From: Segetibacter sp.
Lineage (GTDB): Bacteria; Bacteroidota; Bacteroidia; Chitinophagales; Chitinophagaceae
DNA length: 64,000 nt
Assembly (NCBI GenBank): GCA_028288485.1
Contig: JAQBNO010000045.1
Span: 1 to 64,000 of the forward strand
Reading direction: 5' to 3'
Shown: piece by piece, positions 27,583-51,520 of the stretch
How positions within the stretch are numbered: position 1 is the first letter of the stretch
Layout of the letters: each line of letters begins with the position of its first letter
Made by a program: the position numbers and the translations under genes
Notes under the pieces: model-generated
What the model was told of the DNA's origin: nothing
The model's database searches: none
The model's input: the letters and a program-made list of their open reading frames with translations, nothing else

Positions 27583-29940
27583 ATGTTAAACGAACATCAC
27601 CTCTATTTTCTAGTTATGCTTTTACGATTGCTCCGTATCCACTTAGGTATTTTTCTTACGCTATTATCTTTCTGTTTAATAGTAGATGGACAAAAGATTA
27701 TGACAGGTGGCAAACCAGGCCGACTTGAAATAAGGCAGGCGGGGGAAAGTAGTGTTCGCATTACTCTGAAAGCCTTGAATTTTAAAGAGGATTTTCCATT
27801 TACTCCCGCAGTAGTTGAGCGCAATTATCCTGCACCTGTAATTAGCCTTACCAGGGTTGGGAAGGTGGTCAAAAGAAAAGCAGGTGCTTTAAATATAGAA
27901 GTTGGTGGCAGTCCGTTGACTATTGTTATCCGTAATCGAAGCGGCCGGCTCGTTCAGCAACTGGTTTTTGGAAATGAAGGCAATTTAACTTTCAGCGTGA
28001 ACGATGCGCCAGTCCTGGGACTCGGCGAAGGAGGACCAAAACCTGAAGCCGGGATGAATTGGCGCGCTCTGCCTGTTCAATTCGATAGGCGAGGTAGATA
28101 TGACAGCATGCAGCCGAGGTGGCAAGCCGACGCCTATGGTTCAAGGAATCCGGTACCCCTGCTTGTTGGAACAGATGGTTGGGCCATATTTGTAGCAACT
28201 CCATGGGTTGAGGTTGATCTAAGAAAAAAAGAAAAAGGAGTTTTTGTTCCCTGGATGCCTGCAAATAACTCTTTTACTCCTCAAAATCACGCAAACCAGC
28301 AGCTAAACTTAGGAAAAGGACTTCCACCAACAGACACTGCATTGAAAGGATTTTATGATCTTTTTGTTTTTGATGCTCATGAACCTGCTAAGTTCATGAA
28401 AGACTTTTCTGAAATAACGGGTCCTTCAGTTATGCCTCCCAAATGGGCTTTAGGTTATATGCAATCGCATCGTACACTTACCAATGAAAACCAAATGCTT
28501 GGAATTGTTGATACTTTTCGGGAGAAGAAGATTCCGGTGGATGCAGTAATATACCTGGGAACAGGATTTGTGAAAAAGGGCTGGAATAAAATGCAACCTT
28601 CGTTTGAATTTAATCCTGAAGTTTTCCAAAACGATCCCAAAGATTTTATTACCAAAATGCATGAACGCAATGTAAAAGTGATTTTACATATGGTGCCACG
28701 GGATCGCGATAAATTACCGGGCCTGGTCGGAAATATTCCTGCAAAACGAGGTGAAGTGGTAAACGCCTCCCACATACAGAGTTATTGGAAGCAACATCTT
28801 ACCTTAATGGATCTCGGCGTCGACGGGTTTTGGCCCGATGAGGGAGACTGGTTTAATCTTTTTGAACGCCTTAAAAGACATCAGCTGTATTACCAGGGCC
28901 ATATTTCTTACAATCCGAATTTAAGACCGTGGAGTTTACAAAGAAATGGATTTCCGGGAATAGCACGTTGGGGCGGCTGGGTGTGGTCAGGAGACACTGA
29001 GTCTTCCTGGAAAACGCTCGAAGCGCAAATTGCCGTAGGACTCAATTATTCAATAAGTATTGGTCCTTTTTGGGGAACTGATATTGGAGGTTTTTTTTCT
29101 ACTAAGGAACTGACAGGTGAGCTTTATGCCAGATGGATTCAATTTGCATCATTCTGTGGTTCATTCAGGTCACATGGAAGAACCTGGAGAACACGGCTGC
29201 CATGGGGATGGGGGATGGGTAATATGGAACCAATTGAAGACAAAACCCCTCCACTCCAAACTGAGTTAAATAATCCAGCAATAGAAGGTGTCGCAAAAAA
29301 ATATATTGAGCTGCACTACCAACTTTTACCCTACAACTACACCCTGGCATGGCAAGCACGTACAACAGGACTTCCACTAATGAGGGCGTTGTGGTTGCAT
29401 TACCCGGAGGACGAAAATGCGAGGGGATTAGCAACAGAGTATCTATGGGGAAGGGATATTTTAGTTGCACCCGTATTTGAGAAAGGAGCTACCAGCCGAT
29501 CTGTTTATTTACCTCCGGGTGAGTGGTATGATTGGTGGACAAAATCTAAGTTAGCAGGAGGTCAAACAATTAGCAAAGAAGTCACTCTTGCTACAATGCC
29601 TGTTTATGTTAGGGCTGGTGCTATCATACCAGTTGATCCGATAAGACAATACGTAACACAAGAGGTAACAGAGCCAACAACCTTAAAAATTTTCAGAGGT
29701 ACTAATGGTGAGTTTACGTTGTATGAAGATGATGGAATAAGCCTTGATTATCTTAAGGGAAAGGGAAGCTTAACCCAAATTATTTGGAATGACAAGACGA
29801 AGGAGTTATCGATAAAATCAGTTACCCCACAGGGACTAAAAATCATTGGTAATCCGCGCCCATTTAAAGTTGAACTTGTGCCGGAAGGAATTACCAAAGA
29901 TGTACATTATTCGGGACAGGAAACCTCCGTGTGGTTCTGA
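27583..29940 (+). CDS. Glycoside hydrolase family 31 (alpha-xylosidase/alpha-glucosidase type)
   Basis: The 785-residue protein has an N-terminal hydrophobic signal (LLRIHLGIFLTLLSFCLIVDGQ). AGAGG precedes the ATG at 27583; an alternative in-frame ATG at 27616 would place the signal peptide at the very start. The order is an N-terminal beta-sandwich, then a (beta/alpha)8 barrel with GVDGFWPDEGDWF, whose Asp (about 419) is the expected nucleophile. Next come IGPFWGTDIGGFF, with the likely acid/base region, and GSFRSHGRTWRTRLPW, and C-terminal beta domains (VAPVFEKGATSRSVYLPPGEWYDWW). The family cleaves alpha-linked glucose or xylose; alpha-xylosidase fits the neighbouring pentose-type genes but is not proven. 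It acts in the periplasm or outer membrane. Confidence 0.92.
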   Translation: MLNEHHLYFLVMLLRLLRIHLGIFLTLLSFCLIVDGQKIMTGGKPGRLEIRQAGESSVRITLKALNFKEDFPFTPAVVERNYPAPVISLTRVGKVVKRKAGALNIEVGGSPLTIVIRNRSGRLVQQLVFGNEGNLTFSVNDAPVLGLGEGGPKPEAGMNWRALPVQFDRRGRYDSMQPRWQADAYGSRNPVPLLVGTDGWAIFVATPWVEVDLRKKEKGVFVPWMPANNSFTPQNHANQQLNLGKGLPPTDTALKGFYDLFVFDAHEPAKFMKDFSEITGPSVMPPKWALGYMQSHRTLTNENQMLGIVDTFREKKIPVDAVIYLGTGFVKKGWNKMQPSFEFNPEVFQNDPKDFITKMHERNVKVILHMVPRDRDKLPGLVGNIPAKRGEVVNASHIQSYWKQHLTLMDLGVDGFWPDEGDWFNLFERLKRHQLYYQGHISYNPNLRPWSLQRNGFPGIARWGGWVWSGDTESSWKTLEAQIAVGLNYSISIGPFWGTDIGGFFSTKELTGELYARWIQFASFCGSFRSHGRTWRTRLPWGWGMGNMEPIEDKTPPLQTELNNPAIEGVAKKYIELHYQLLPYNYTLAWQARTTGLPLMRALWLHYPEDENARGLATEYLWGRDILVAPVFEKGATSRSVYLPPGEWYDWWTKSKLAGGQTISKEVTLATMPVYVRAGAIIPVDPIRQYVTQEVTEPTTLKIFRGTNGEFTLYEDDGISLDYLKGKGSLTQIIWNDKTKELSIKSVTPQGLKIIGNPRPFKVELVPEGITKDVHYSGQETSVWF

Positions 29941-30233
29941 GCAGGAATGTGTTCAGTTTTTTTCTAAGCGACTGTTAACTTACTTGTAAGCGCAGATCTA
30001 AATGCAAATAAAAAATATCGTTTCTATTAACATTTATATGCAATTACCCGAAGGAAAACGGTTTCAAAGGAAAGTTCAATTCCTATAGCAATAATCCGTT
30101 AAAATCGAAAGTGTGTAAACTTAGCCGAGAGGTGGAAGGTTTTTTTAATAGTCAGTAACCTTATTTTACTTCCCGTCGCATAAATAGGTGTAACGAATTT
30201 TTGGGAACCGAACTGCATTGCTACTATTTTCCA

Positions 30234-30346
30234 TGGTTGCCACGCTCGGTTCACAAGCAGCTTTTCATAGCAGCGCGGCAGTTATCCTTAGGCCTGTTCA
30301 TGGTTGCACTCTTATACGTTTGGTGCAATACGAAGCAATGCCTACT
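30234..30346 (+). repeat. Long-type dispersed repeat, degenerate
   Basis: GGTTGCCACGCTCGGTTCAC, AAGCAGCTTTTCATAGCAGC and then GTTGCACTCTTATAC align with the repeat at 49672-49775. The second hairpin arm is lost. It occupies the gap between GH31 and the XRE regulator; the rest of 29941-30418 shows no gene. Confidence 0.7.
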
Positions 30347-30504: not shown

Positions 30505-31074
30505 ATGTTAGAAGCGTTGCTGCTGGATGAAAAAATAAACAATCTCAACATTGGGGACCGTATTAGGATTTTACGTAGTAATCAAAAAAGGACACTCCAG
30601 GAAATTGCAGATGCGAGTGAACTTTCGAGGAGCATGATTTCTAAGATTGAGAATAATAAAACCGTTCCTTCAGTAGCAGCTTTAGTAAAAATTGCCCAGG
30701 CATTGGGAACTACTATATCTAGTCTGCTTGAGCATAACGGATTTTTAAATGCTATCATTACAACAAGGCATAAAGCAGAAGAGAACGTCACGGCCACAGA
30801 TAAAGGTTATTCCATTTACCCTTATGCGTCGGAATACCATGAAAAGAAAATGCAGCCGTTTTTGTTTGTTGCAAAAAAAGGTGAAGTAAAACCACACGAA
30901 GTGTCGCATGAAGGTGAAGAATTTATCTACATCATCCGCGGGCAAATGAAAATGCAGGTGGGAGAAGCTGAATATCTTTTAAAAACAGGAGACAGCCTCT
31001 ATTTTAACTCGTTACAAAAGCATGGGATAATGCCTGTTTCAGAAGAAGTTATGTACCTCGATATTTTTGTATAA
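30505..31074 (+). CDS. XRE-family transcriptional regulator with C-terminal cupin
   Basis: The 189-residue protein has an HTH_3 domain at about residues 17-72 (IGDRIRILRSNQKRTLQEIA, DASELSRSMISKIENNKTVP) and a cupin_2 domain at about 110-185 (EGEEFIYIIRGQMKMQVGEA, FNSLQKHGIMPV). This architecture (PuuR/SutR-like) binds DNA and senses a small ligand in the barrel. It is placed directly before SusC, where Bacteroidota loci usually have an ECF sigma/anti-sigma pair or a hybrid two-component sensor. It is therefore the best candidate regulator of the glycan locus; the ligand is unknown. Confidence 0.92.
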   Translation: MLEALLLDEKINNLNIGDRIRILRSNQKRTLQEIADASELSRSMISKIENNKTVPSVAALVKIAQALGTTISSLLEHNGFLNAIITTRHKAEENVTATDKGYSIYPYASEYHEKKMQPFLFVAKKGEVKPHEVSHEGEEFIYIIRGQMKMQVGEAEYLLKTGDSLYFNSLQKHGIMPVSEEVMYLDIFV

Positions 31075-31527: not shown

Positions 31528-34500
31528 ATGAACATGTTTACAAAACGATTGCCTGAAGCAGGTATGCTATCCTCGCTTCTGATTGTGCTGTTGTTGCTTT
31601 TTTGCAATTCAGCAATGGCTTTTGATCCCACAAAAGGTAGGGTTACCGATGCATCAGGAAAACCTCTTGAAGGCGTTACGGTAACTGTAAAGGGAAAAGG
31701 TTCTGCTACCACCACTTCCTCTGATGGAACTTTTACCATCGATGCCACTAAAGGCACAGTACTTACCATTTCTTATGTCGGTTTTGAGGACCAGCAGGTA
31801 TCGGTTTCGACTGGACGAGACCTCAGCATTGTAATGAAAGAAAAAGTCAATACAATGGACAATGTTATTGTGATTGGTTATGGTACTCAATCAAAGAAGG
31901 ACCTTACCGGCGCAATAGGTTCAATATCTGAAAAGGATATTGAAAAATCTTCCATTACTACACCTGACCAGGCATTAAGAGGTAAGGTTTCCGGTGTTCA
32001 GGTTCGTACAAACTCTCACGCTCCGGGTGGTGGTATTGCCGTTCAAATACGTGGTACTGCATCTATCTCTGCTGGTGGTTCTCCTCTATATGTAATAGAT
32101 GGTATGCCAATCTCTAATGACTTCGCAACAGGTAGAAGCTCTGACGCAGGTACCTTCGGATCTCCTCCCAACCCACTTAACTCAATCGACCCGTCCGACA
32201 TTGCTTCCATCCAGGTTTTAAAAGATGCATCTGCTACGGCTATCTACGGTTCTCGTGCTGCAAATGGTGTGGTGTTAATCACAACTAAACGTGGTAAAAC
32301 AAATGAGCATACCGTTAACCTTGATTACTCTTATGGAGTTGCTAAACTAGGTAATAAGCTTCCTTTTTTAAATGCAACCCAATGGGCAGAGCAGGCAAAT
32401 GCACGTGCCGTAGCTTTGGGACAGACCAAGGTTTATTCTGACGCTCAAGTTGCCTCATTTGGCACAGGAACCGACTGGCAGGATGAGGTTTATCGTACTG
32501 CGGGCAGAAAGAATTACAAATTGTCCTTTGCTGGTGGTGCCCAAGGTGTAAGGTACATGATCTCAGGAAACATGTCTGACCAGGATGGTATCGTTCGTGG
32601 GTCTAATTTTAAACGGTATGGAACTACTATTAACCTTGATGCTGACGTAAGCAAAAGATTAAAGATCGGCCAAAGCCTGATGTTCACCATCACCAATAAT
32701 AAAATAGTTCCTACTGATACAAAAGGTTACGAAGGCGTTTCTAACGTAATAGATGCAATTTTTGAAGCTCCTCCAACTGTACCTGCAAGAGATAGTTTAG
32801 GAGAGCCAACAAACATTGCCAGGTACCCGCTTGGCGGGGGTCGCGAAAATCCGCTTATCATGACCGATAAATACAATCAGTTGGCTAACACCAGTCGTAT
32901 TATTGGTAACGTTTTTGCAAATTACAGCGTTGCCAAAGGACTTGACCTTAACGTAAGATTCGGCTACGACATCAACGACTGGAGGTATCATGAGTATTTC
33001 CCTATTGGATCGGAAGCATCGGCAGGCTCAAATGGTCGTGCAAGACAATCAAGCATGAAGAATATAAACCTTGCTAATTCTAATACCTTAACGTATAATA
33101 CTACCCTAAACAATATTCATAAGCTAACTGTTTTAGGTGGTTTTACTTATCAAACAAACAAAATGGAATCAATGGATGCATCATCTTTTGGTTTCCCTAG
33201 TGATATCTTTCAATATTATAATCTTGGTCTTGGTAGTAGTGTTCAAACTCCGGGTAGTACTCAGCAAGAGTGGACACTTATTTCTTACTTAGGCAGGGTT
33301 AACTATTCACTGTATAATAAGTACCTACTTACTGCATCAGTTCGTGCGGATGGTGACTCGAAATTCGGAAAGAATAATAAATACGGTTTGTTCCCTTCAG
33401 TATCATTTGCATGGCAATTGGCTGAGGAGAATTTCATTAAAAACATGAATGTTTTCAGCCAGCTGAAGTTCCGTGCGAGCTATGGTAAAACAGGTAATGA
33501 ATCAATTGGTGTTTATCGTTCACTTTCATTGTTAGGTACTTCATTCGGTACAAGATCTTCTTATATTTTTGGTTCTACACGTTACCCCATCGCATTCCCT
33601 CAAAACCTTGCAAATCCTGATTTAAGTTGGGAGAAAACAGGTGAATATAATTTGGGTCTTGACATGGGATTCTTCACCAACCGCGTTAACCTGTCTTTGG
33701 ATTATTATTACAAGAAAACAACCGACCTTTTGTTAGATGTTCCGGTACCTTCTCAAACTGGTTTCGGAGGCGTACTCCAGAATACCGGAGCTATGCTGAA
33801 CAAAGGTGTTGAAATAGGTTTGAACACTGTTAACTTAACTGGTAAGTTCAACTGGAACACCAACTTCAACATATCATTTAACAAAAACACTATCCTTGAT
33901 TTAGGCGGTGCACCGTACCTGTACAGCGGTTGGGTAGGTGGAGGTAACGTTACTCCGCACGATAAAAATACAGCCCGTTTGCAACCAGGTCACTCTGTAG
34001 GTGAATTTTACGGTTCTATCTACGAAGGTATTTGGCAATCACAGGAAGAAATCGATAAAGTAGGTACAATGCCTGCAGCAAAACCCGGTGATATACGGTA
34101 CAAAGACGTAAATGGTGATGGTAAATACGACACAGAAAGTGATGACGTATTCTTAGGAAACCCAAACCCGAATTTCACTTTTGGATTTACCAATGATTTA
34201 AATTACAAAAACTGGAGCTTGCATGTATTCATGTATGGCGAATATGGCAACGAGGTTTTGAACCTGGCAGCTCAGCAGCTCGCTTTAGATGGTTTAGGAC
34301 CTTCCGCTAAACGTTTGGATATGTGGACACCTACAAACACTAAGGGTGCTTATCCTGGTGCCCGTGTTTCAAATCCACAAAGAGTAAGTTCCATATTAAT
34401 TGAAGACGGATCTTTCCTTCGTATTCAAAACGTGTCTATAGGATACAACTTACCAGTAAAAGGTTTGCTTTCCGGAAAACTTATCAGGAGTGCACGTATC

Positions 34501-34656
34501 GGAGCAGGTGTCGATAACCTGGCTGTATTTACTAAGTACTCTGGCTACGATCCTGAGGTTAATGCTTTCGGTTCAAGTAACACATCGAAAGGAATGGATC
34601 GTTTTGGTTATCCTCCTTCTCGTATAGTAAGCTTCAATATTTCTCTTGGTTTTTAA
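31528..34656 (+). CDS. SusC/RagA-family TonB-linked outer-membrane transporter
   Basis: The 1042-residue protein has a signal sequence and a CarboxypepD_reg-like domain (GRVTDASGKPLEGVTVTVKG to YVGFEDQQVSV). The TonB/plug region has MDNVIVIGYGTQSKKDLTGA, ALRGKVSGVQVRT and GGSPLYVIDGMPISNDF. The large barrel ends PPSRIVSFNISLGF with the terminal aromatic residue of outer-membrane proteins. It forms the import channel for an oligosaccharide, lidded by the SusD protein encoded next. Length is normal. The two are clearly co-transcribed, with only 22 bases to the chosen SusD start. Confidence 0.97.
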   Translation: MNMFTKRLPEAGMLSSLLIVLLLLFCNSAMAFDPTKGRVTDASGKPLEGVTVTVKGKGSATTTSSDGTFTIDATKGTVLTISYVGFEDQQVSVSTGRDLSIVMKEKVNTMDNVIVIGYGTQSKKDLTGAIGSISEKDIEKSSITTPDQALRGKVSGVQVRTNSHAPGGGIAVQIRGTASISAGGSPLYVIDGMPISNDFATGRSSDAGTFGSPPNPLNSIDPSDIASIQVLKDASATAIYGSRAANGVVLITTKRGKTNEHTVNLDYSYGVAKLGNKLPFLNATQWAEQANARAVALGQTKVYSDAQVASFGTGTDWQDEVYRTAGRKNYKLSFAGGAQGVRYMISGNMSDQDGIVRGSNFKRYGTTINLDADVSKRLKIGQSLMFTITNNKIVPTDTKGYEGVSNVIDAIFEAPPTVPARDSLGEPTNIARYPLGGGRENPLIMTDKYNQLANTSRIIGNVFANYSVAKGLDLNVRFGYDINDWRYHEYFPIGSEASAGSNGRARQSSMKNINLANSNTLTYNTTLNNIHKLTVLGGFTYQTNKMESMDASSFGFPSDIFQYYNLGLGSSVQTPGSTQQEWTLISYLGRVNYSLYNKYLLTASVRADGDSKFGKNNKYGLFPSVSFAWQLAEENFIKNMNVFSQLKFRASYGKTGNESIGVYRSLSLLGTSFGTRSSYIFGSTRYPIAFPQNLANPDLSWEKTGEYNLGLDMGFFTNRVNLSLDYYYKKTTDLLLDVPVPSQTGFGGVLQNTGAMLNKGVEIGLNTVNLTGKFNWNTNFNISFNKNTILDLGGAPYLYSGWVGGGNVTPHDKNTARLQPGHSVGEFYGSIYEGIWQSQEEIDKVGTMPAAKPGDIRYKDVNGDGKYDTESDDVFLGNPNPNFTFGFTNDLNYKNWSLHVFMYGEYGNEVLNLAAQQLALDGLGPSAKRLDMWTPTNTKGAYPGARVSNPQRVSSILIEDGSFLRIQNVSIGYNLPVKGLLSGKLIRSARIGAGVDNLAVFTKYSGYDPEVNAFGSSNTSKGMDRFGYPPSRIVSFNISLGF

Positions 34657-34678
34657 AAAATTATTTAAACGATTGTCG

Positions 34679-36247
34679 ATGAAAAAGAATTGTTATAAAA
34701 TATCTAATAAAGCTCCTTTTCTTATACTTGGTTTAGCGATATTCAGCTTATTAGGTTGTTCAAAGAAACTGGAAGAAAAGGTTTACAGCCAGGTGCCGGT
34801 TGATCAGTTCTATAAAACAGAGGACCAGGCACAATTGGCACTAAACGGTGTTTACAGCCGCGCCCTTTGGAATGACCCATACAGAGACGCCCAGGTTATT
34901 ACCTTAGGCGATGTTACTGCAGGTTTACTTATAGGTGGAGGTTCAGCGAATGGGTCTGGTGACAGATCTGGTATCAGCAACGAATGGAATACCTACTCAT
35001 GGACACCTGATGCAATAGAACTAACCAGCGTCTGGAACTTCACCTTTGAGACAATTAACATGGCCAATACCCTGACTGATAAGTTGGAAACTTCTGCTAT
35101 TCCTGCCAGCTCAAAAGCTAAAATATCAGGACAGGCTAAGTTTTTAAGAGCTTTCCACTATTTTAATCTTGTTCGTATGTTTGGCGGAGTTCCTCTTCAC
35201 GTACACGGAACTTCTGATCTTAGTGAAGCTTATAAAGCACGAAATACTCCTGAAGAAGTATATGCCCAGATAATAATTGACCTTCAACAGGCTCAAACAG
35301 AAATGGCCCCTTTTAATGCCAGTGACCAGGCCAATGGAAGAGCTACCTCTGCTGCTGCAACTGCCTTACTTGCCAAAGTTTACCTTCAGCAGCGTAACTG
35401 GCAAAAAGCTGCGGAAGAGGCCAAAAAAGTAATAGACCTGAATTACTTTACCCTAATGGCCGATTATGAAAACATCAATAACCCCGATTTTCAAAACGGA
35501 AGAGAAAACTTGTTTTCTATTCAGCATGGTGGAAATGCCAACAGTAGTTCTCAGCAGTATCAGACAAGGATGATCTATTTGTATGGACCTCCCGCACAAA
35601 CATTGCCCGGCGGACAAAATATCCAATTCCATACGCTTAAAGACCTTGTAATTTTCCAGGCAAGAAAAGAATTCTTCAATTCTACACCTAATACATATAG
35701 AAAATGGTGGACAATGAGGGATAGAATGCCGTACTATTATAAGGGAGGCGTAAGTGCTGCTAACTTGGTAATGGATACTGTAAAGATGTATGCGCCGTTT
35801 GTAACTAAATTTCATCGTATTAACCTGTCAACAGGTGCATTAAGAGAAGGTGTTAACTTCCCGCTTATTCGTTATTCTGATGTCTTGTTAGCATACGCAG
35901 AAGCGTTAAACGAAGCGAACGGCCCTTCACAGGCAGCGTACAATGCTATTAACACGGTTCGAAGAAGAGCCAGGGCAGTAGGCACTCCAATGGCACAGCC
36001 TGAAACTGTTTATCCTGATCTAAGTAACCTGAGCAAAGATCAATTCAGAGATGCGATTTTAACTGAATATGCAAATGAGTTTGTTGGAGAAGGCCATTTT
36101 AGATACGATTTGCTTAGACACGATCGTTTGATTACTACTGTAAAGGCATTGGGGATAACCGCTGCTGCCGACAAGCATAAATTGTTTCCTATACCTGGCA
36201 TCCAGATGAGCCGTAACAAAAGCCTGGTGCAAAATCCAGGTTATTAA
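34679..36247 (+). CDS. SusD/RagB-family glycan-binding lipoprotein
   Basis: I start at the ATG at 34679 (MKKNCYKIS), which opens a lipoprotein signal with the lipobox FSLLGCSKK; the frame extends into the end of SusC at 34646. The 522-residue protein has the SusD signatures: VDQFYKTEDQAQLALNGVYS near the N-terminus, TPR-like helices (KFLRAFHYFNLVRMFGGVPL, RATSAAATALLAKVYLQQRN) and the C-terminal PLIRYSDVLLAYAEALNEAN, NTVRRRA and GEGHFRYDLLRHDRL. It captures the glycan at the cell surface for the SusC partner. Confidence 0.97.
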   Translation: MKKNCYKISNKAPFLILGLAIFSLLGCSKKLEEKVYSQVPVDQFYKTEDQAQLALNGVYSRALWNDPYRDAQVITLGDVTAGLLIGGGSANGSGDRSGISNEWNTYSWTPDAIELTSVWNFTFETINMANTLTDKLETSAIPASSKAKISGQAKFLRAFHYFNLVRMFGGVPLHVHGTSDLSEAYKARNTPEEVYAQIIIDLQQAQTEMAPFNASDQANGRATSAAATALLAKVYLQQRNWQKAAEEAKKVIDLNYFTLMADYENINNPDFQNGRENLFSIQHGGNANSSSQQYQTRMIYLYGPPAQTLPGGQNIQFHTLKDLVIFQARKEFFNSTPNTYRKWWTMRDRMPYYYKGGVSAANLVMDTVKMYAPFVTKFHRINLSTGALREGVNFPLIRYSDVLLAYAEALNEANGPSQAAYNAINTVRRRARAVGTPMAQPETVYPDLSNLSKDQFRDAILTEYANEFVGEGHFRYDLLRHDRLITTVKALGITAAADKHKLFPIPGIQMSRNKSLVQNPGY

Positions 36248-43444: not shown

Positions 43445-43504
43445 CATATTATAGCAGTAATACAACGAGAGTTTTTTTGTTATCAGCAAATTAATTCTAT
43501 TTAA

Positions 43505-43528: not shown

Positions 43529-43726
43529 TAATGGTAACATTATTTGGCCGGGACGAGCTGTCATTGCCAGGAATTAAGCAATTTGCTGCACTAAGAGCAG
43601 GTTGATTAATTGGCGGGGATTGCTTCGCCAAGCTACGCAAGGCCGGCAGTGACGAAGGCTAGTGATGGTTGTTGTAAGAAACGAAGCAATTACTGTTTTT
43701 ATAATAGAATAACTAAAAAGACAATC

Positions 43727-44503
43727 TTGGAAAAAAGAATACTTGATTTATTTAAACTAGACGGACACGCAGCATTAGTAATAGGCGGCAACCGTGGGCT
43801 TGGATTAGCCATGGCAAAAGCGCTGGCAGAGGCAGGGGCAAGTATCTGTATTGCCGCCCGTTCGCAAAAAGAAAATGAAGAAGCTGAACAAACGATCAGG
43901 GAATTATACGGCGTTGATTGTATGAGCGCTGTTTGTGATGTTACTTCCGAAGAGAGTGTGAAGCAAACCGTTCAACAAACCGTAGAGCGGTTTGGAAAAA
44001 TAGATATTTTAATCAATTCCGCCGGTATCAATATCCGTGGTGCAATCGAAGATTTATCACTGGAGGATTTTAATAAAGTACAACAGATTAATGTTACGGG
44101 CTCATGGTTAGCCTGCCGCGAAGTGGTGCCGGTGATGAAGAAGAATGGCTACGGCCGTATCATTAACATTGGTTCAATGCTTTCTGTTACTGCCATACCC
44201 GAACGCACACCTTACGCCACAAGTAAGGGAGCTGTTTTACAGCTTACCCGCTCGCTGGCAATGGAAGTAGCAAAAGAAAATATTAATGTAAACGCTATTT
44301 TACCCGGCCCGTTTGCTACCGATTTAAATCTGCCCTTGACCAATGATCCTGAAAAGTATAAAGCTTTTATTTCTAAAATTCCCATGGGCCGTTGGGGTGA
44401 ATTATATGAAATAGCCGGGATAGCGCTTTACCTCGCCAGTCCTGCATCGAGTTATGCAACCGGCGGTTGTTTTTCAGTCGACGGAGGATGGATCACAGTT
44501 TAA
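43727..44503 (+). CDS. Short-chain dehydrogenase/reductase (sugar or sugar-acid)
   Basis: I place the start at the TTG at 43727 (MEKRILDLFKLDGHAALVIGG). The frame stays open to 43610, but that part is repeat sequence, and no ATG is near the domain start. The 258-residue protein is a classical SDR: GGNRGLGLAMAKAL for NAD(P), LINSAGINIRG, Ser in INIGSMLS, and YATSKGAVLQLTRSLAME with the Tyr-x-x-x-Lys pair. It resembles gluconate-5-dehydrogenase and 2-keto-3-deoxy-sugar-acid dehydrogenases. In the locus it may oxidise the free sugar (like XylB) or a keto-deoxy acid; the sequence does not decide. Confidence 0.85.
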   Translation: MEKRILDLFKLDGHAALVIGGNRGLGLAMAKALAEAGASICIAARSQKENEEAEQTIRELYGVDCMSAVCDVTSEESVKQTVQQTVERFGKIDILINSAGINIRGAIEDLSLEDFNKVQQINVTGSWLACREVVPVMKKNGYGRIINIGSMLSVTAIPERTPYATSKGAVLQLTRSLAMEVAKENINVNAILPGPFATDLNLPLTNDPEKYKAFISKIPMGRWGELYEIAGIALYLASPASSYATGGCFSVDGGWITV

Positions 44504-44520
44504 TTCAGCAGCAGAAGAAG

Positions 44521-44542
44521 TTGCCGGCCAGGCGGCCGGCAA
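44521..44542. other. Perfect GC-rich hairpin
   Basis: TTGCCGGCC (44521-44529) pairs with GGCCGGCAA (44534-44542) across a four-base loop. No T run follows on either strand, so it is not a classical terminator. It lies in a G+C-rich gap between the SDR and the AraD1-like gene. Confidence 0.6.
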
Positions 44543-44692
44543 AAGAAAAAGTTGCGGGTGGGCTACCCTCAACGGCGGGCTCGCCCCGGTTGGGTCGCCT
44601 GCCAACTGCCAGCGTTTTCGGTAATCTAAAATTCTGACGTGCTCAACGCACTTGCAAGCGGCTGTTCGGGCACGACTAAAAATTAAATAATT

Positions 44693-45706
44693 ATGAAAGA
44701 AAGCATAAGGTTGGTTCAGCTTAGTCACCCTACTGAAGGGCGACGGGTAGCTTTGGTTCAGGAACCGTCACTTGCATTATTAAACGATGCTGCTTCTGTT
44801 TACGAGCTAGCCCATGCGGCTCTCGAAAAACAGGAGAAATTGGAAAAACTGGTTCTATCCCGTTTGTCTGATCAGTTATTAGATTACGATGCAGTATACG
44901 AAGGTGAAAGTGAATGGAAATTATTGCCTTCTTTCGACCATCCTCAAAATCCTGCTGCCTGTATTGTTTCCGGTACAGGTTTAACCCATAAAAACAGTGC
45001 GCTTAACCGCCAGATGATGCACCAGGCGCAAGAGCTTACGTTAACGCCCAGCATGCAGATGTACCAGTGGGGCGTAGAAGGCGGTCACCCTGAAACTGGA
45101 TCTGTCGGTGTTCAACCCGAGTGGTTTTATAAAGGAACCGGAGATGCTTTGCGTGGACATAATGAAAGTTTGGAAATTCCTGCATTTGGAAACGATGGGG
45201 GAGAGGAACCTGAAGTAGCCGGTGTTTATATAGTTGACCGCAATGGAAAACCGTGGCGGATAGGGTTTACAACAGGCAACGAATTTTCGGACCATGTAAT
45301 GGAGAAAAAAAACTATCTCTACCTGGCGCCATCCAAGCTAAGAAATTGCTCGATCGGGCCCGAACTGGTATTGACTCCGGATTTTGAAGAAGTGCGTGGC
45401 ACTGTCGGTATCGCCAGGAACGGAACCACTATCTGGTCAAAAGAAATAAAGTCTGGTGAAAAAAATATGGCCCACAGCCTCGAAAATCTAGAACACCATC
45501 ATTTTAAATACCCTGGCCACCGTATTCCGTTCCAGGCTCACGTTCACTTTTATGGTGCCGACGCGTTCAGCTTTGGCGAACAAATTCAGTTGCAGGAAGG
45601 CGACGTGATGAATGTACAATGGGAAGAACTGGGCCGGACTTTAAAAAATCCGTTACGACTTGCGAGGGAAGAAGAAAAGTTGGTGGTGGTTGAGGCGATG
45701 AGATAA
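44693..45706 (+). CDS. AraD1/GguC-family protein (FAH fold), probable 2-keto-3-deoxy-sugar-acid dehydratase
   Basis: The 337-residue protein matches the AraD1/GguC branch of the fumarylacetoacetate-hydrolase superfamily. Signatures are SGTGLTHKNSALNRQMMHQA, GVQPEWFYKGTGDALRGH, the metal-site segment NDGGEEPEVAGVYIVDRNGK, GNEFSDHVMEKKNYLYLAPS, SGEKNMAHSLENLEHHHFKY and QAHVHFYGADAFSF. Relatives such as XylX-type enzymes dehydrate 2-keto-3-deoxy-pentonates to alpha-ketoglutarate semialdehyde. That fits the semialdehyde dehydrogenase encoded at 49874. The alternative is a 2,4-diketo-3-deoxy acid hydrolase, also FAH-fold. Cytoplasmic. Confidence 0.85.
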   Translation: MKESIRLVQLSHPTEGRRVALVQEPSLALLNDAASVYELAHAALEKQEKLEKLVLSRLSDQLLDYDAVYEGESEWKLLPSFDHPQNPAACIVSGTGLTHKNSALNRQMMHQAQELTLTPSMQMYQWGVEGGHPETGSVGVQPEWFYKGTGDALRGHNESLEIPAFGNDGGEEPEVAGVYIVDRNGKPWRIGFTTGNEFSDHVMEKKNYLYLAPSKLRNCSIGPELVLTPDFEEVRGTVGIARNGTTIWSKEIKSGEKNMAHSLENLEHHHFKYPGHRIPFQAHVHFYGADAFSFGEQIQLQEGDVMNVQWEELGRTLKNPLRLAREEEKLVVVEAMR

Positions 45707-45712
45707 CTGCTT

Positions 45713-45866: not shown

Positions 45867-48092
45867 ATGAAAAAGGCCTCTAACGATTTGTCCTGCCATA
45901 GGTTTCTGTTGACTATGCTTGTTGTATTCCTTTTAATACAGCCGCTTAAGGCACAACCCGGAAATACTCCACTTTATCTTGACTACAACAAGCCTGTTGA
46001 GCAACGTGTAAGGGACCTGATGTCGCGAATGACATTAGAGGAAAAAGGGATCTTCTTAAACCATGTCGGGCCCGACATTGAGCGATTTAAAATCAAATCG
46101 GATAAATGGAACCAGAACCTGCACGGAGTTGTCTGGGACCGGCCCACAACCATGTTCCCGGTATCAATAGCAGCCGCGGCAACATGGAACCCTAAACTTA
46201 TTAATGAAGTCGCTACCGCCATTTCTGACGAAGCGAGGGCAATCTATAATGGCTGGCACCTGGACTCTAACTTCCAGGGGTATAAAAAAGGACTGATCTA
46301 TCGTTCACCTGTAATTAATGTTAGTCGCAATCCTTACTGGGGTCGTATTAATGAATGTTTTGGAGAAGACCCCTTTTTAATAGGCCGTTTAGGTGTTGCT
46401 TATGTAAAAGGTCTACAAGGCGATGATCCAAAATACCTGAAACTGGTAGCTACATTAAAGCATTATGCGGTAAATAACGTTGAAGCCAACCGGCAGGCGC
46501 TTTCCGCTACTGTAAGCGAACGCATGCTGCACGAGTTCTGGTTGCCGCATTTCAAGGACTGTATTGTTGAAGGTGGCGCTCAATCTATCATGGCATCGTA
46601 TAATGCTATCAATGGCATTCCCAGCAACATAAATAAATTAATGCTTACTGAAATCCTGAAAGACAAATGGGGTTTTAAGGGCTTTGTCGTCTCAGATCTT
46701 GGTGGGGTAAAGTCGATGGTGACCGGCCATAAGAAAGGTGAAATGAGCTATGAACAAGCGGTTGCTCAATCTTTGGTTGCCGGTTGTGATTTCTCTGACA
46801 AAGAATTTATGGAATTCATACCGGCAGCAGTCAGGCAGGGATTACTTCCCGAAGCAAGGCTGAATGATGCAGTATATCGTGTAATGCGCGACCGCTTTCT
46901 TTTAGGAGATTTTGATCCGTTTGATAAGGTTCCTTACAGTAAAATTCCGGTGTCTGTTATTGGAAATGAGGCGCACCGCCAATTGGCATTAAGAGAAGCT
47001 CAACAGTCAATTGTATTACTATCGAATAAAAATAAAGTTCTTCCGCTTGATAAAAGCAAAATAAAAACTATTGCCGTTATTGGTCCACACGCCGATATTT
47101 TTACTGCAGGCGGTTACAGTGGTAAACCCATGGAAGCTATAACACCGATGCAGGGAATAAAAAACCGTGCAGCCGAAGGAACTGAACTGATTTTTGCAAA
47201 GGGATCTGTTATCCCTGCCGCCCCACGTAGAAACAATTCTACCGCGCCGGCTCCTGTAATCCCGGTTTTTAATACTGCAGAAGAATTAGTCAAGGCTGCT
47301 GAAGCAGCAAAGAAAGCAGATGTTGCCATTTTGTTTTTGGGTACAACGCTCGATGTTGAAGCCGAAGGCCGCGACCGTACTTCTTTAGGTTTGCCTGGTA
47401 ACCAGGAAGAACTTTTTAGAACGGTGTTAGCCGCTAATCCAAAAACTATTGTAGTTCTTATGAATGCGGGTCCATTAACAATTCCGGCTATAAAAGAAAG
47501 TGCACCTGCTATTATTGAAGGTTGGTGGGGTGGCGAACAAGGGGCCAATGCAATCGCTGATGTAATTTTTGGCAACGTTAATCCGGGAGGTAAATTACCA
47601 TTTACAGTATATGCTTCAGAAGCCCAGGTTCCTTCGCAAGACGAATATGATGTAACCAAAGGGTTTACCTATATGTACCTGAATGGAAAGGCTCTTTTTC
47701 CTTTCGGGCACGGATTAAGCTACACCAATTTTAAGTATGCTAACCTGAAACTCTCCAACAACAAGATACCAGCCACAGGTAAGGTAACGGTAAGCGTAGA
47801 TGTTACAAATACAGGTAAAATGGTTGGTGATGAAGTAGTTCAGTTATATGTACATGATGTTGAAGCAAGTGTAAAAAGACCCGCCAAAGAACTCAGGGGA
47901 TTTGAACGTATCACACTAAACCCGGGACAAACTAAGACGGTGTCGCTTACTTTAACTGGCGATAAGCTGGCTTTCTATGATGAGAAGTCCCACGGCTTTA
48001 TCGTTGAGCCTGGTGCTTTTGATCTATATGTAGGAAGCTCTTCTGAGGATATCCGGCTGCAAACAAAGCTGAATGTTATAAAAGGCAAATGA
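45867..48092 (+). CDS. Glycoside hydrolase family 3 (beta-glucosidase/beta-xylosidase)
   Basis: The 741-residue protein has a signal peptide ending LKAQPG. The GH3 N-terminal barrel contains RMTLEEKGIFLNHVGPDIER, INVSRNPYWGRINECFGEDP, LKHYAVNNVEANRQ and the nucleophile Asp277 in FKGFVVSDLGGVKSM. The GH3 C-terminal domain and a fibronectin-III-like domain (VSVDVTNTGKMVGDEVVQLY, LRGFERITLNPGQTKTVSLT) complete it. It removes beta-linked glucose, xylose or arabinose from chain ends in the periplasm. The QxNxE-like segment EAEGRDRTSLGLPGNQEEL is usual for the family. Xylosidase activity would suit the locus but is inference. Confidence 0.94.
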   Translation: MKKASNDLSCHRFLLTMLVVFLLIQPLKAQPGNTPLYLDYNKPVEQRVRDLMSRMTLEEKGIFLNHVGPDIERFKIKSDKWNQNLHGVVWDRPTTMFPVSIAAAATWNPKLINEVATAISDEARAIYNGWHLDSNFQGYKKGLIYRSPVINVSRNPYWGRINECFGEDPFLIGRLGVAYVKGLQGDDPKYLKLVATLKHYAVNNVEANRQALSATVSERMLHEFWLPHFKDCIVEGGAQSIMASYNAINGIPSNINKLMLTEILKDKWGFKGFVVSDLGGVKSMVTGHKKGEMSYEQAVAQSLVAGCDFSDKEFMEFIPAAVRQGLLPEARLNDAVYRVMRDRFLLGDFDPFDKVPYSKIPVSVIGNEAHRQLALREAQQSIVLLSNKNKVLPLDKSKIKTIAVIGPHADIFTAGGYSGKPMEAITPMQGIKNRAAEGTELIFAKGSVIPAAPRRNNSTAPAPVIPVFNTAEELVKAAEAAKKADVAILFLGTTLDVEAEGRDRTSLGLPGNQEELFRTVLAANPKTIVVLMNAGPLTIPAIKESAPAIIEGWWGGEQGANAIADVIFGNVNPGGKLPFTVYASEAQVPSQDEYDVTKGFTYMYLNGKALFPFGHGLSYTNFKYANLKLSNNKIPATGKVTVSVDVTNTGKMVGDEVVQLYVHDVEASVKRPAKELRGFERITLNPGQTKTVSLTLTGDKLAFYDEKSHGFIVEPGAFDLYVGSSSEDIRLQTKLNVIKGK

Positions 48093-48167: not shown

Positions 48168-48238
48168 ACCGTTCGGCTTTGCTCAGGGTAAACTGCCAGG
48201 GGGAGTAATCAGATTTAGTACAAGCGAGCGTGGCAACG
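48168..48238 (-). repeat. Long-type dispersed repeat (inverted, shortened)
   Basis: GTTCGGCTTTGCTCAGGGTA followed by GTACAAGCGAGCGTGGCAAC is the reverse complement of the layout at 49672 and matches 52244-52340. It lies in the GH3-MFS gap. Confidence 0.7.
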
Positions 48239-48312: not shown

Positions 48313-49605
48313 ATGGAACTTGCTTCGCCTCTGCTAAACCCTGTTAAATTACCTAAGATGAGATGGGTAATGATAACCATGGCTTTTCTCGCAACTTTGC
48401 TTAACTATGTTCACCGGTTATCATTTACCTATTTGAGTGCCGACGGCGAGCTGAGGAAGATGATTCCTGACAGTGCCTTTGGCGACATTGCTGCTGCTTT
48501 TTTCATTGCCTATATGATCTCCAACGCGTTTTCAGGGTATGTGATAGATAAATTAGGAACACGGTTAGGCTACTCTTTGTGTATGGCTTTCTGGACAACC
48601 GCCGGCCTTTTTCATGCATTTGTAGTATCTCCTTTTCAATTCGGCGTAGCCCGGTTCTTTTTAGGAATAGGGGAGGCAGGTAACTGGCCCGCTGCTCTTA
48701 AGTTAACCAGCGAATGGTTTCCGCCACATGAGCGATCGACAGCTTCCGGCATCTTTAATAGTGGAAGTGCATTGGGTGTCATCATCGTTCCTCCTTTAGT
48801 CGCTTTCCTGGGAACCAATTATGGCTGGCAGGCTACCTTTATCATACTTGCTGTCTTTGGTTACCTGTGGCTGGCCGTATTCTGGTTTTTATATTACACG
48901 CCCAATAAATCAGAAAAAGACACTAAAGTAAAGATTATTCCGCCTGTTAAGCTTTTTAAAACCCGTTTCGTATCGATGTTCGCTCTTTCTAAATTCTTCC
49001 TCGATCCGGTGTGGTATTTTGTTACATTCTGGATTGGAAGGTATTTGGTTGATGTGCATCATTTAACGTTAACGCAAATCGGGTTTTATGCTATACTTCC
49101 GTTTATAATAGCTGACTTAGGAAATATTGTCGGCGGGTATTTCACCCAGTTTATTATTAAAAAAGGAATGCCTATTCATAAAGCGAGAAAACTCTCTATT
49201 TGTTTATCTGCAGCTATTATGGCCGCTCCGCTTTTGCTGGCGCCGTTCATTATACATTCACCCATTTCTGCCTTGATCGTTTTTGGAATCACTGGTTTTG
49301 GTTACACATCCTATACGGCTAATTCACTGGCTACTCCTGCCGATATTGTTCCGGCCAGTGCTACTGCCACCGTCTGGGGACTGGGATGTATCGGTACCGG
49401 TTTGGGTGGGGCCCTTTTTAATTTTCTTTCCGGCCGCTCTCTATCACTCGTTACAACAACAACCCATGATTATACTGCCGGTTACAATACTTTGTTTTTA
49501 GGCTATGGAGTGCTTGCCGTAATCGGTCTTTTGGTAGTGTGGTTTTTAATAGGACCTTTTACTAAAAACGAAGAGTTACATGCCTACGTGGAAGCGGGAA
49601 AATAA
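48313..49605 (+). CDS. MFS transporter of the anion:cation symporter (ExuT-like) type
   Basis: The 430-residue protein has twelve predicted membrane segments and resembles the ACS subfamily (hexuronate, galactonate and glucarate permeases). Landmarks are NYVHRLSFTYLSADGELRK, the A-motif region VIDKLGTRLGYSLCMAFW, FFLGIGEAGNWPAALKLTSE and RSTASGIFNSGSALGVIIVP. It imports sugar acids or similar anions across the inner membrane with protons. The family suggests that the locus may take up an oxidised sugar (uronate or aldonate) rather than a neutral one, which is compatible with the sugar-acid enzymes around it. Confidence 0.88.
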   Translation: MELASPLLNPVKLPKMRWVMITMAFLATLLNYVHRLSFTYLSADGELRKMIPDSAFGDIAAAFFIAYMISNAFSGYVIDKLGTRLGYSLCMAFWTTAGLFHAFVVSPFQFGVARFFLGIGEAGNWPAALKLTSEWFPPHERSTASGIFNSGSALGVIIVPPLVAFLGTNYGWQATFIILAVFGYLWLAVFWFLYYTPNKSEKDTKVKIIPPVKLFKTRFVSMFALSKFFLDPVWYFVTFWIGRYLVDVHHLTLTQIGFYAILPFIIADLGNIVGGYFTQFIIKKGMPIHKARKLSICLSAAIMAAPLLLAPFIIHSPISALIVFGITGFGYTSYTANSLATPADIVPASATATVWGLGCIGTGLGGALFNFLSGRSLSLVTTTTHDYTAGYNTLFLGYGVLAVIGLLVVWFLIGPFTKNEELHAYVEAGK

Positions 49606-49671: not shown

Positions 49672-49775
49672 CATCGTTGCCACGCTCGGTTCACAGGCAG
49701 TTTTTCATAGCAGCCTGTGAACCGAGCGAAGTTGAAGGGTACGCTGAGCCGGGCGAATGGTCGCACTCTTGTACT
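49672..49775 (+). repeat. Long-type dispersed repeat with perfect 16-bp hairpin
   Basis: CATCGTTGCCACGCTCGG opens the unit. CGCTCGGTTCACAGGC (49683-49698) pairs perfectly with GCCTGTGAACCGAGCG (49713-49728). GAAGTTGAAGGGTACGCTGA and the terminal GCACTCTTGTAC follow. This is the most complete copy in the window. Confidence 0.85.
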
Positions 49776-49873: not shown

Positions 49874-51466
49874 ATGACACTTACAGGTGAAAATTTTATA
49901 GGATTTAAAAACAGTGCAGAGGGTAATAAAAGTTTCCAGGCCTTTGGATCAACAACCAATGATTATTTGCCGGGTAATTTCACTATTGCAACTAAAGAAG
50001 AATTTGAAACGGTTCTTGCGCTGGCCGATGGGGCTTTTCCAATTTACCGGGAAGTGCCGGCAGCAAAGAGGGCCGATTTTTTAGACGCAATAGCACATGA
50101 AATTAGTGAACTGGGTGATGCTCTGGTAGAAAGATGCTGCCAGGAGTCGTCGCTTCCTGCGCCTCGTATTATAGGCGAAAGGGCGAGGACATGTGGTCAA
50201 TTACAAATGTTTGCAAAGCTATTGCGTGACGGCTGGTGGGTAGATGCACGGATCGATGTTGCTCTTCCTGACCGTTTGCCTCTGCCAAAGGCAGACATTA
50301 GACGAATGCTTATTCCTATCGGCCCCGTTGCTGTTTTTGGAGCAAGTAATTTTCCTTTAGCCTTTTCCACCGCCGGAGGTGATACGGCATCTGCTTTAGC
50401 AGCCGGCTGCCCGGTAGTAGTAAAATCACATTCTTCGCACCCGGGAACAAATGAATTGGTATCTTCTGCTATAATAAAGGCAGCCAAAAAAACCGGAATG
50501 CCCGAAGGCGTATTTTCTTCTGTTTATCTTTCTCACGAAGATTCTGTAAACCTCGTAAAACATCCTGTTATAAAAGCGGTAGGATTTACGGGTTCACGAA
50601 GTGTTGGTATGCGCCTTTTTGATGCAGCCGTTTCAAGGCCTGTGCCAATACCTGTTTACGCAGAAATGAGTGCGATCAATCCTGTAATACTTTTTGAAAA
50701 TGCGTTAATTGAGCAAAAGGATAAAATTGCAAAAGACCTTGCTGCCTCTGTTGTATTAGGCGCTGGTCAGTTTTGTACCAATCCCGGCCTCGTTTTAATG
50801 GTTGACAGCGATGCTTCTCTCAATTTCAGAACTGCTTTTGCAGAACAATTTGCTGCTACAGCTCCTGCGCCAATGCTCAACAGGAATATTCATAAAGCAT
50901 ATAATGAAGCGGTAAAGTCTTTTCAAAGTGCACCTGAGATCTTTGTATTGGCAAAATCAGCTAAAGAAGCTGCAGCCGAAAGATATGAAGCGCACCCGGT
51001 AGTTCACATGGTGAGTGCTTCAGATTTTATGTCGAAAAAAGAATTCTCAGAGGAGATTTTCGGACCTGCCACCTTATTAGTTATTTGTAAGGACCAGCCT
51101 GAATTGCAGGCGACACTACAAGCACTCGAAGGGCAATTGACAGCAAGCATACACGCAGCTCCTGCTGATGAAGCAGCGTTGAAACCTATAGTAAATATCG
51201 TTTCGGATAAAGCAGGGCGGGTTATATACGGCGGATATCCTACAGGTGTAGAAGTCTGTCATTCTATGCAACATGGCGGACCTTTTCCCGCCACCAGCGA
51301 TGCCCGGGCAACATCAGTGGGATCTGCCGCAATTTACAGGTTTGTTAGACCGGTAGCTTATCAAAGTTTTCCCGATCACTTACTTCCTGAAGCTTTACAA
51401 AATGCAAACCCTTTAAATATTCTTCGCCTGGTAGATGGTAATTGGACGACTAATCCTATCACCTAA
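49874..51466 (+). CDS. Alpha-ketoglutarate semialdehyde (2,5-dioxovalerate) dehydrogenase-like ALDH
   Basis: The 530-residue protein is an aldehyde dehydrogenase of the NADP-preferring KGSADH type. It has GPVAVFGASNFPLAFSTAGG for coenzyme binding, KSHSSHPGTNELVSSAI, GFTGSRSVGMRLFDAA, the general base Glu in VYAEMSAINPVILF and the catalytic Cys in VVLGAGQFCTNPGLVL. Family members oxidise alpha-ketoglutarate semialdehyde to alpha-ketoglutarate, the last step of oxidative pentose and of glucarate/galactarate routes. It closes the carbohydrate locus and is followed by a strong terminator. The ALDH fold is certain; the substrate is inferred. Confidence 0.9.
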   Translation: MTLTGENFIGFKNSAEGNKSFQAFGSTTNDYLPGNFTIATKEEFETVLALADGAFPIYREVPAAKRADFLDAIAHEISELGDALVERCCQESSLPAPRIIGERARTCGQLQMFAKLLRDGWWVDARIDVALPDRLPLPKADIRRMLIPIGPVAVFGASNFPLAFSTAGGDTASALAAGCPVVVKSHSSHPGTNELVSSAIIKAAKKTGMPEGVFSSVYLSHEDSVNLVKHPVIKAVGFTGSRSVGMRLFDAAVSRPVPIPVYAEMSAINPVILFENALIEQKDKIAKDLAASVVLGAGQFCTNPGLVLMVDSDASLNFRTAFAEQFAATAPAPMLNRNIHKAYNEAVKSFQSAPEIFVLAKSAKEAAAERYEAHPVVHMVSASDFMSKKEFSEEIFGPATLLVICKDQPELQATLQALEGQLTASIHAAPADEAALKPIVNIVSDKAGRVIYGGYPTGVEVCHSMQHGGPFPATSDARATSVGSAAIYRFVRPVAYQSFPDHLLPEALQNANPLNILRLVDGNWTTNPIT

Positions 51467-51520
51467 ACTGATCCTGGCACAAGTAGTTTTGGCTCTCATA
51501 CGGTTGTTTTTTTATGGACA

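Follow-up and report, generated by a model that had tools for sequence, protein, structure and literature searches.

A glycan utilisation locus of a Segetibacter sp. with a predicted non-phosphorylative oxidation cassette that recurs in Bacteroidota

Glycan loci of Bacteroidota normally end at the monosaccharide, which is then passed to shared isomerase and kinase pathways. The Weimberg route (xylXABCD of Caulobacter) leads from an aldose or aldonate through 2-keto-3-deoxypentonate (KDP) and alpha-ketoglutaric semialdehyde to alpha-ketoglutarate, and an L-lyxonate pathway of Pseudomonas aeruginosa was reportedly described by Ghasempur in 2014. In PMC6336799, the same chain of reactions appears as Route II of Herbaspirillum, where a diketo-hydrolase route from KDP, Route III, is also known. 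Here we describe a locus in a window of 64,000 nucleotides (the whole stretch of DNA analysed; contig JAQBNO010000045.1, positions 1 to 64,000) from the 6.4 Mb genome of a Segetibacter sp. The locus has thirteen genes from 27583 to 51466, all on the + strand; the open reading frame (ORF) listing and a profile search confirmed the gene set named in a preliminary description. Like a polysaccharide utilisation locus, it combines a SusC/SusD pair and carbohydrate-active enzymes on the same strand. We consider it, with a probability of roughly 0.55, a SusC/D glycan locus carrying a portable oxidative cassette similar to the Weimberg route or Route II, in which the dehydratase is of the enolase type and no kinase or isomerase is needed. 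The predicted chemistry is the same as in those systems, and both have a FAH-fold KDP dehydratase and an alpha-ketoglutaric semialdehyde dehydrogenase (KGSADH), predicted ones in the window. The locus differs from them in its enolase-type instead of IlvD/EDD dehydratase, the absence of a lactonase from the locus, the SusC/D setting and an importer of the acid type. It is a variant of Route II/L-lyxonate-type catabolism coupled to glycan loci. Our literature search found no paper joining 'Weimberg' with 'polysaccharide utilization loci' and no published description of the cassette.

In the proposed pathway, secreted GH39, GH31 and GH3 enzymes would release an aldose by trimming oligosaccharides that are probably rich in pentose (arabinan/pectin or xylan type). 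Either this sugar or its aldonate would cross the inner membrane through a major facilitator superfamily (MFS) importer (48313 to 49605) resembling the anion:cation symporter (ACS) family. A classical short-chain dehydrogenase/reductase (SDR; 43727 to 44503, adh_short_C2), predicted to act on a sugar or sugar acid, would form the aldonolactone, and this could open spontaneously or by a lactonase encoded elsewhere. A sugar-acid dehydratase of the MR subgroup of the enolase superfamily (42275 to 43444, PF13378/PF02746; called MR below), a family assigned from its sequence, would dehydrate a pentonate, its putative substrate, to KDP. A protein of the AraD1/GguC family (44693 to 45706; AraD1 below) is predicted to dehydrate KDP to alpha-ketoglutaric semialdehyde, which an aldehyde dehydrogenase (ALDH; 49874 to 51466, PF00171), the predicted KGSADH, would oxidise to alpha-ketoglutarate.

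Conservation of the cassette is a stronger part of this finding than the pathway detail. One scan of genome contigs with an alignment of five MR sequences (A1) collected 39 loci, and 33 of them (L044-L072, L074, L075, L079 and L081 in our numbering) carried Bacteroidota-type genes. MR was readable in 32 of the 33 (not in L081), and 28 of these continued for over 3.5 kb beyond it. SDR directly followed MR in 27 of these 28 loci, AraD1 lay at most three genes after MR in 26, and an importer lay at most seven genes downstream in 27 (the exception being L061). The importer was of the MFS type in 23 loci and a tripartite ATP-independent periplasmic (TRAP) set in four (L055, L058, L072 and L074), where DctP, Q and M genes stand in SusC/D glycan loci; no locus had both. 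Pfam confirmed DctP in L055 alone; the other TRAP loci were recognised by similarity. The MR-SDR-AraD1-importer order therefore recurs in about 30 Bacteroidota loci, and because the grouping recurs in this way, it is not due to chance. Within about 10 kb on either side, a GH39 or GH31 gene was found in 19 of the 21 loci flanked by over 8 kb on each side (GH39 in 17, GH31 in 2); 16 of these 21 had SusC and 13 an XRE-cupin regulator. GH31 homologues were 40-67% identical in the cassette loci of GH31 type. The SusC/D pairs were 58-79% identical to those of the window in some cassette loci and 24-35% identical in others. Since these pairs diverge between loci, the cassette is a unit shared across different SusC/D types, and the idea that it is the locus's own was abandoned.

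The count was restricted as follows. Contigs reached twice (L039/L044, L040/L068 and L041/L056) were counted in the L044-L081 set only, and L038, L042, L043, L073, L076-L078, L080 and L082 were excluded; the enolases of L080 and L082 show 29% identity and stand in unrelated context. The cassette is rare. At E 1e-100, MR was found only in the window's own genome among 395 evenly drawn Bacteroidota genomes, and of 294 genomes of the family, 10 had an AraD1 above its cut-off. Four of the nine other AraD1 loci fetched from the family had the cassette (L039, L040, L041 and L043), the carriers including Segetibacter sp. 3557_3 (L040 = L068), of the same genus as the host of the window. Three of the remaining five had AraD1 at 41-43% identity in unrelated surroundings, and L042 ended at a contig edge. 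The fifth, L038, had adjacent AraD1 and ALDH genes with GH31 (GH31-AraD1-ALDH), and MR and SDR were absent; such pairing of AraD1 with ALDH without MR fits consecutive steps. A mutarotase gene was detected by similarity in L054, L066 and L068, with Pfam support in L066.

Three loci deserve separate mention. L045, titled 'MAG: Williamsia sp.' (Actinomycetota), contains SusC and GH39 genes together with a cassette whose MR is 87% identical, and is probably a misbinned contig. Directly upstream of the cassette in L048 (positions 3295-9187), genes for a FucP-like MFS, a mutarotase-like protein, two SDRs, a FAH hydrolase, an amidohydrolase and an alcohol dehydrogenase look, on reading by eye, like another non-phosphorylative cluster for a deoxysugar. 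L079, the only locus where SDR did not directly follow MR, is a frameshifted metagenome contig of Puia in which MR is broken into two frames and no SDR is seen intact before AraD1 (6714-9718), reflecting either assembly error or decay.

AraD1 falls within NF040903 with 423 bits against a curated cut-off of 340, and had no Pfam match at E 0.001. The same model also matched in Caulobacter, Haloferax and Sulfolobus, and one of these matches exceeded the cut-off. Glu143 of AraD1 aligns with Glu114 of Sulfolobus KdaD, and its Glu-x-Glu pair with Glu143/Glu145 of KdaD. The Glu and the pair were conserved in all 32 aligned AraD1 sequences, EEAE replacing EEPE in L061 and Gemmatirosa. In a hand alignment only, Ser and Asn occupied the hydrolase His-x-x-Glu position in AraD1 proteins; the automatic alignment of AraD1 with a FAH hydrolase did not line up the region of the hydrolase dyad. 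We take COG3970 and NF040903 (GguC kind) to be the same family. According to PMC6336799, the COG3970 protein C785_RS13680 converts D-KDP to alpha-ketoglutaric semialdehyde, with a 34-fold lower kcat/Km for L-KDP, and the Route III hydrolase belongs to another FAH branch. From its family and catalytic positions, AraD1 is predicted to be of the dehydratase kind, i.e., a KDP dehydratase. This assignment and the recurrence of the core with the same neighbours support the earlier proposal that a non-phosphorylative set (aldonate dehydratase, KDP dehydratase and semialdehyde dehydrogenase) is tied to the glycan locus. AraD1 homologues occurred on 132 plasmid records, among which the contexts in Sphingomonas and Gemmatirosa were inspected.

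The best NCBIfam model for MR was L-rhamnonate dehydratase at 224 bits, below the cut-off of 393, and MR scored higher with aldonate than with hexarate dehydratase models. Its nearest solved chains, 3sqs, 3stp and 3ssz (391-411 bits), have putative or unassigned functions. All five A1 sequences share K176xR178, D288 and H315; that is, a KxR motif and a His-Asp dyad are present, which we take to be the rule for the L-lyxonate dehydratase (LyxD) family. Plasmid matches of MR at E 1e-60 came from 41 records. Among the 25 listed, 21 were 44-53% identical to MR and four haloarchaeal ones 41-42%; twelve were annotated as L-rhamnonate dehydratase, one as mandelate racemase and one as enolase-like, and 11 had no annotation. 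The haloarchaeal homologues relate MR to the RhcD-annotated L-rhamnonate dehydratase of haloarchaea, a system in which the dehydratase alone was compared.

In all five annotated plasmid regions inspected (L083-L086 and L088), a PdxA-like gene adjoined MR. Other genes nearby were cytochrome b561 (Sphingomonas and Variovorax), SMP-30 and/or YncE (four regions) and ALDH (Ruegeria), and such clusters presumably serve an ascorbate-to-L-lyxonate route. After MR comes a DHDPS-family gene in Variovorax and Ruegeria and AraD1 in Sphingomonas (L083), and neither was seen in Paraburkholderia or Caballeronia. Since araD1 of Sphingomonas stands directly after the MR homologue, where the others have the DHDPS-family gene, AraD1 can occupy the DHDPS slot. 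These clusters resemble the window in the homologous MR (45-51% identity), in the ALDH homologue of Ruegeria, 46% identical to the ALDH of the window, and in this araD1. On the other hand, the window locus has no PdxA, cytochrome b561, SMP-30 or YncE, and has SDR, glycoside hydrolases and SusC/D in addition. In a tree of 42 rows, in which the far rows L080 and L082 were placed unsurely, the Bacteroidota MR enzymes were split from the ascorbate-type enzymes and a Gemmatirosa/Acidobacteria pair by a long branch (length 0.98, support 99/100). They did not fall inside the presumed LyxD clade in this tree. The barrel motifs agree with those of the relatives, whereas the 20s loop differs. From the separate clade and this loop, MR is read as a cousin of the ascorbate/L-lyxonate group and not a member, so its substrate could have changed. 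Ascorbate catabolism, which these relatives suggest, was rejected, as no PdxA, b561 or YncE was found in the 15 of the 33 Bacteroidota loci viewed. A supposed SMP-30 lactonase gene beside L063 had no Pfam match, and no lactonase is claimed from it. The replacement of the IlvD/EDD type by an enolase-type dehydratase, pointed out in the preliminary description, still stands, but enolase-type pentonate dehydratases are already known, e.g., the D-arabinonate dehydratase of Sulfolobus (PMC6336799).

All gene families named previously were found again, with some changes in detail: the start of SDR was moved, the FAH-type enzyme lacks a Pfam match, and ALDH is called KGSADH-like because of its relatives. 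For SDR, the TTG codon at 43727 is a more likely start than 43610, as it gives 258 aa, the length of most orthologues. Among the best 25 of 237 NCBIfam models, only the generic PRK07231 'glucose 1-dehydrogenase' was above its cut-off for SDR, R104 was invariant in 31 of 31 sequences, and no plasmid match was obtained at E 1e-45. The spacers flanking SDR are long (43445-43726, 282 bases; 44504-44692, 189 bases); the MR-SDR gap is at most 25 bases in most orthologous loci and about 509 bases in the closest relative, L044. The solved relatives of ALDH are 3v4c and 1eyy; none of the best 25 of 36 NCBIfam models reached its cut-off, and no curated KGSADH model was reached.

The importer of the window bears the label 'D-galactonate transporter' solely through an under-threshold model (TIGR00893, 176 bits against 395). 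Anions are the usual cargo of ACS-type MFS and TRAP systems. The best-scoring chains for the TRAP binding protein were 4ovr, 4ng7, 4x04 and 4p1l, whose ligands are presumably hexuronates. Its sequence relatives also include 7BBR, 4N8Y and 4X8R. For these three, PMC11668362 gives KDG, galacturonate and glucuronate, respectively, as ligands, and cautions that co-purified ligands may be non-native. A structure model of the TRAP binding protein from four sequences (A2) had a pLDDT of 39 and was not used; nor were its comparisons, in which Foldseek gave DctP chains at TM 0.13-0.14, and VIA-align gave Z of at most 4.0 with unrelated folds on top.

The hydrolases next to the cassette were compared with known structures. 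The three GH39 enzymes, a (36557 to 38284; PF01229, E 2.3e-53), b (38459 to 40192; E 1.9e-55) and c (40515 to 42224; E 3.4e-51), are tandem paralogues, also detected as DNA repeats; a is 80% and c 59% identical to b, and their PF01229 scores were 175-189 bits against a cut-off of 26. Glu218 (WNEP) and Glu341 (GESDP), the acid/base and the nucleophile, were invariant in 15 aligned sequences. An AlphaFold2 model of GH39b (pLDDT 77.7) had GH39 beta-xylosidases as its nearest folds (Z 33-34), with alpha-L-iduronidases at Z 29-30. The GH31 alpha-glycosidase (27583 to 29940; PF01055/PF21365/DUF5110) has mainly alpha-glucosidases and alpha-xylosidases as solved relatives, the best being 6jr8 (E 6.6e-65) and Xyl31A 2xvg following at E 2.3e-60. 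The GH3 glycosidase (45867 to 48092; PF00933/PF01915) is xylosidase/arabinosidase-like; its best NCBIfam models were beta-xylosidases, below cut-off. Signal peptides read by eye suggest that the GH31 and GH3 enzymes are secreted.

Of the 395 Bacteroidota genomes, 13 contained the GH39 subfamily at E 1e-100, and 7 plasmid records had it as well. In Gemmatirosa, MR, AraD1 and GH39 stand in a row, with PL22-type and GH31-like genes within 18 kb. Three alphaproteobacterial loci (L091-L093) have GH39 with Gfo/Idh/MocA, IlvD/EDD and a DHDPS-family gene (29-70% identity among themselves) and with an amidohydrolase. The annotation of all three includes an ABC importer of the oligopeptide type, and in L091 a PfkB-type kinase and a sugar ABC transporter lie in between. 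The IlvD/EDD of L092 scored 670 bits with the L-arabinonate dehydratase model (cut-off 882). In L094, GH39, Gfo and IlvD were recognised by similarity, with no DHDPS- or amidohydrolase-like match. These loci (L094 in part) resemble the window in having the same GH39 subfamily, at 46-50% identity, beside an oxidative sugar-acid set. They differ in having Gfo/Idh/MocA, amidohydrolase, IlvD/EDD and DHDPS in place of SDR, MR and AraD1, an ABC importer, and GH39 enzymes without a visible signal peptide (L091-L094, N-termini read by eye). On one acidobacterial metagenome contig, GH39 lies on the strand opposite to MR, and an MFS of 32% identity is present. In four phyla, one GH39 subfamily thus adjoins genes of sugar-acid oxidation whose enzymes are in part non-homologous; it often stands without such genes too. 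For us this pairing is the strongest argument for the pathway idea, and it hints at arabinan or pectin.

From this pairing a broader proposal may be drawn tentatively, and we hold it somewhat doubtful. GH39 exo-hydrolases of one subfamily in four phyla would be tied to non-phosphorylative oxidation by two largely non-homologous sets (SDR/MR/AraD1 and Gfo-Idh-MocA/IlvD-EDD/DHDPS). In Bacteroidota the sugar would enter as an acid by interchangeable MFS or TRAP importers, and the MR clade would represent a novel specificity, for a pentonate from pectin or arabinan that XylA and AraA do not serve. The surroundings of GH39 in the Bacteroidota genomes without MR, where ten genes from four loci were checked by Pfam, included GH127, alpha-L-arabinofuranosidase-type and melibiase-type proteins (L123), GH43 with an arabinofuranosidase-like gene (L124, and L125 by similarity), GH106, GH88/105 and PL22-type genes (L121), and, by eye, a GH51-like gene (L120) and apparent pectin genes (L127). 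In L128, GH39 stands beside KduI, a KduD-like SDR (KduD model, 329 bits, just below cut-off) and an ACS-like MFS. Nothing related was recognised around GH39 in L118, L119, L122, L126 and L129.

Several observations weigh against the oxidative cassette reading as proposed. No lactonase lies within the locus: neither a lactonase nor a kinase or isomerase was found among ORFs of at least 150 aa between 27.5 and 51.5 kb, as already stated in the preliminary description, and the rest of the genome was not searched for a lactonase. The nearest solved relatives of SDR are gluconate 5-dehydrogenases (1vl8, E 4e-61), and the kind of importer is better suited to an acid than to a free pentose, so that a cytoplasmic aldose 1-dehydrogenase looks out of place. 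L045 and L046 have MR and SDR and no AraD1 nearby. ALDH is present in only 7 of the 21 well-flanked loci; each of the 15 cassette genomes searched has at least one ALDH of the same family at E 1e-100, so the last step could come from elsewhere in the genome. MR was matched neither in 12 of the 13 GH39-bearing Bacteroidota genomes nor in the stretches fetched from them, and two of the seven plasmid GH39 records (L090 and L096) had neither MR nor another oxidative set. Finally, XylA was found in 15 and AraA in 14 of the 15 cassette genomes, and therefore the common pentoses already have isomerases. The earlier interpretation is partly supported: it was right in kind (oxidative, non-phosphorylative and in-locus) and is unproved for the sugar, the SDR step, the lactonase and the mode of import.

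The sugar is probably five-carbon. L-arabinonate and L-lyxonate are our first guesses for the substrate of MR because both would yield L-KDP, D-xylonate and others being further candidates. A Caulobacter-like D-xylose pathway was not adopted: MR is not of the IlvD/EDD type, its kin, found in the presumed ascorbate/L-lyxonate clusters, are not known to act on xylonate, and all 15 cassette genomes searched have XylA. It stays a candidate, as the relatives of GH31, GH39, GH3 and GH43 all include xylosidases. L-rhamnose seemed to be supported by the absence of RhaA (PF06134) from all 15 cassette genomes, but this was weakened by RhaI-like isomerase homologues in 15 of 15 (384-521 bits, all below the curated cut-off of 646.75). 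The mutarotase in three loci points to an aldose, and mutarotase and acid importer alike would be explained by a uronic acid.

The order of hydrolysis, import and oxidation is uncertain in view of the acid-type importer and the TRAP sets. The aldose might be oxidised outside the cytoplasm, or the acid be part of the glycan; the pentonate would then enter by MFS or TRAP, SDR would act on a sugar acid (e.g., in an epimerising or keto-acid step), and MR, AraD1 and ALDH would act as in our proposal. The importer type, the TRAP substitution in four loci, the kinship of SDR with gluconate 5-dehydrogenases and its invariant Arg104 speak for this. So do a GSDH-type (glucose/sorbosone dehydrogenase) gene in L051 and the TRAP relatives reported with sugar acids in PMC11668362. 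However, the GSDH-type gene was identified in this one locus and was not seen in that of the window, and a similar-looking L048 gene matched a PVC-type heme-binding model below cut-off in an NCBIfam scan only. In addition, the alphaproteobacterial GH39 enzymes without visible signal peptide lie beside a cytoplasmic-type oxidoreductase, and oxidation there is probably inside. Acid import is unlikely in our view.

Distinctly improbable is a hexuronate route, in which an imported uronic acid would be oxidised by SDR to a hexarate and dehydrated by MR, and AraD1 would dehydrate and decarboxylate the product to alpha-ketoglutaric semialdehyde for ALDH. It would suit the acid-type importers, the iduronidases of the GH39 family, the invariant GESDP and HxKG motifs, which resemble those of iduronidase, the KduI and KduD-like neighbours in L128, the PL22-type genes near GH39 in L121 and Gemmatirosa, and the mutarotases. 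On the other hand, MR prefers aldonate models; its relatives are of the presumed L-lyxonate type, whose C2-C4 configuration, by our reasoning, matches no common hexarate; the alphaproteobacterial IlvD/EDD suggests an aldonate; and the GH39 fold is closer to xylosidases. We know of no AraD1 that decarboxylates. Route III, in which MR would form 2-keto-3-deoxy-L-rhamnonate or KDP, SDR oxidise C4 and AraD1 hydrolyse the diketo acid to pyruvate and lactate or glycolate with ALDH incidental, is very improbable. The constant MR-SDR-FAH trio with variable ALDH, the L-rhamnonate model of MR, the Herbaspirillum precedent of this route for KDP and the lack of RhaA are opposed by the GguC kind of AraD1, the Ser and Asn hand-aligned in place of the hydrolase dyad, the AraD1-ALDH pair of L038 and the RhaI-like homologues, so that the L-rhamnonate alternative raised earlier is disfavoured.

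The oxidation genes travel with hydrolases as a cassette in about 30 loci. If the oxidative cassette reading is correct, the sugar would bypass glycolysis and end in the citric-acid cycle. An unassigned clade of the enolase superfamily and the Bacteroidota AraD1 proteins would then gain a function, and glycan loci would be shown to work with importers of the TRAP or ACS type. These soil and water bacteria would also be expected to have a dedicated oxidative route for some sugar or sugar acid.

The remaining genes of the locus encode an XRE-cupin transcriptional regulator (30505 to 31074; HTH_3 and Cupin_2), a SusC-type TonB-dependent transporter (31528 to 34656; TIGR04056, 885 bits, above its cut-off) and a SusD-type surface lipoprotein (34646 to 36247; PF07980/PF14322). 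The upstream flank (21932-27129) encodes a TonB-plug protein, a DUF2807 protein and an acyltransferase, and the four genes examined downstream of ALDH all lie on the opposite strand. A 16-mer, GTTGCCACGCTCGNTT, occurs at 30236-30251, 48222-48237, 49676-49691 and 52321-52336 as an interspersed palindromic (REP-like) intergenic element. GTTGCCACGCTCGNTT was counted 152 times in the genome (81 + 71), against 0 times for the backward reading. At 49683-49728 there is a perfect inverted repeat of 16 bp.

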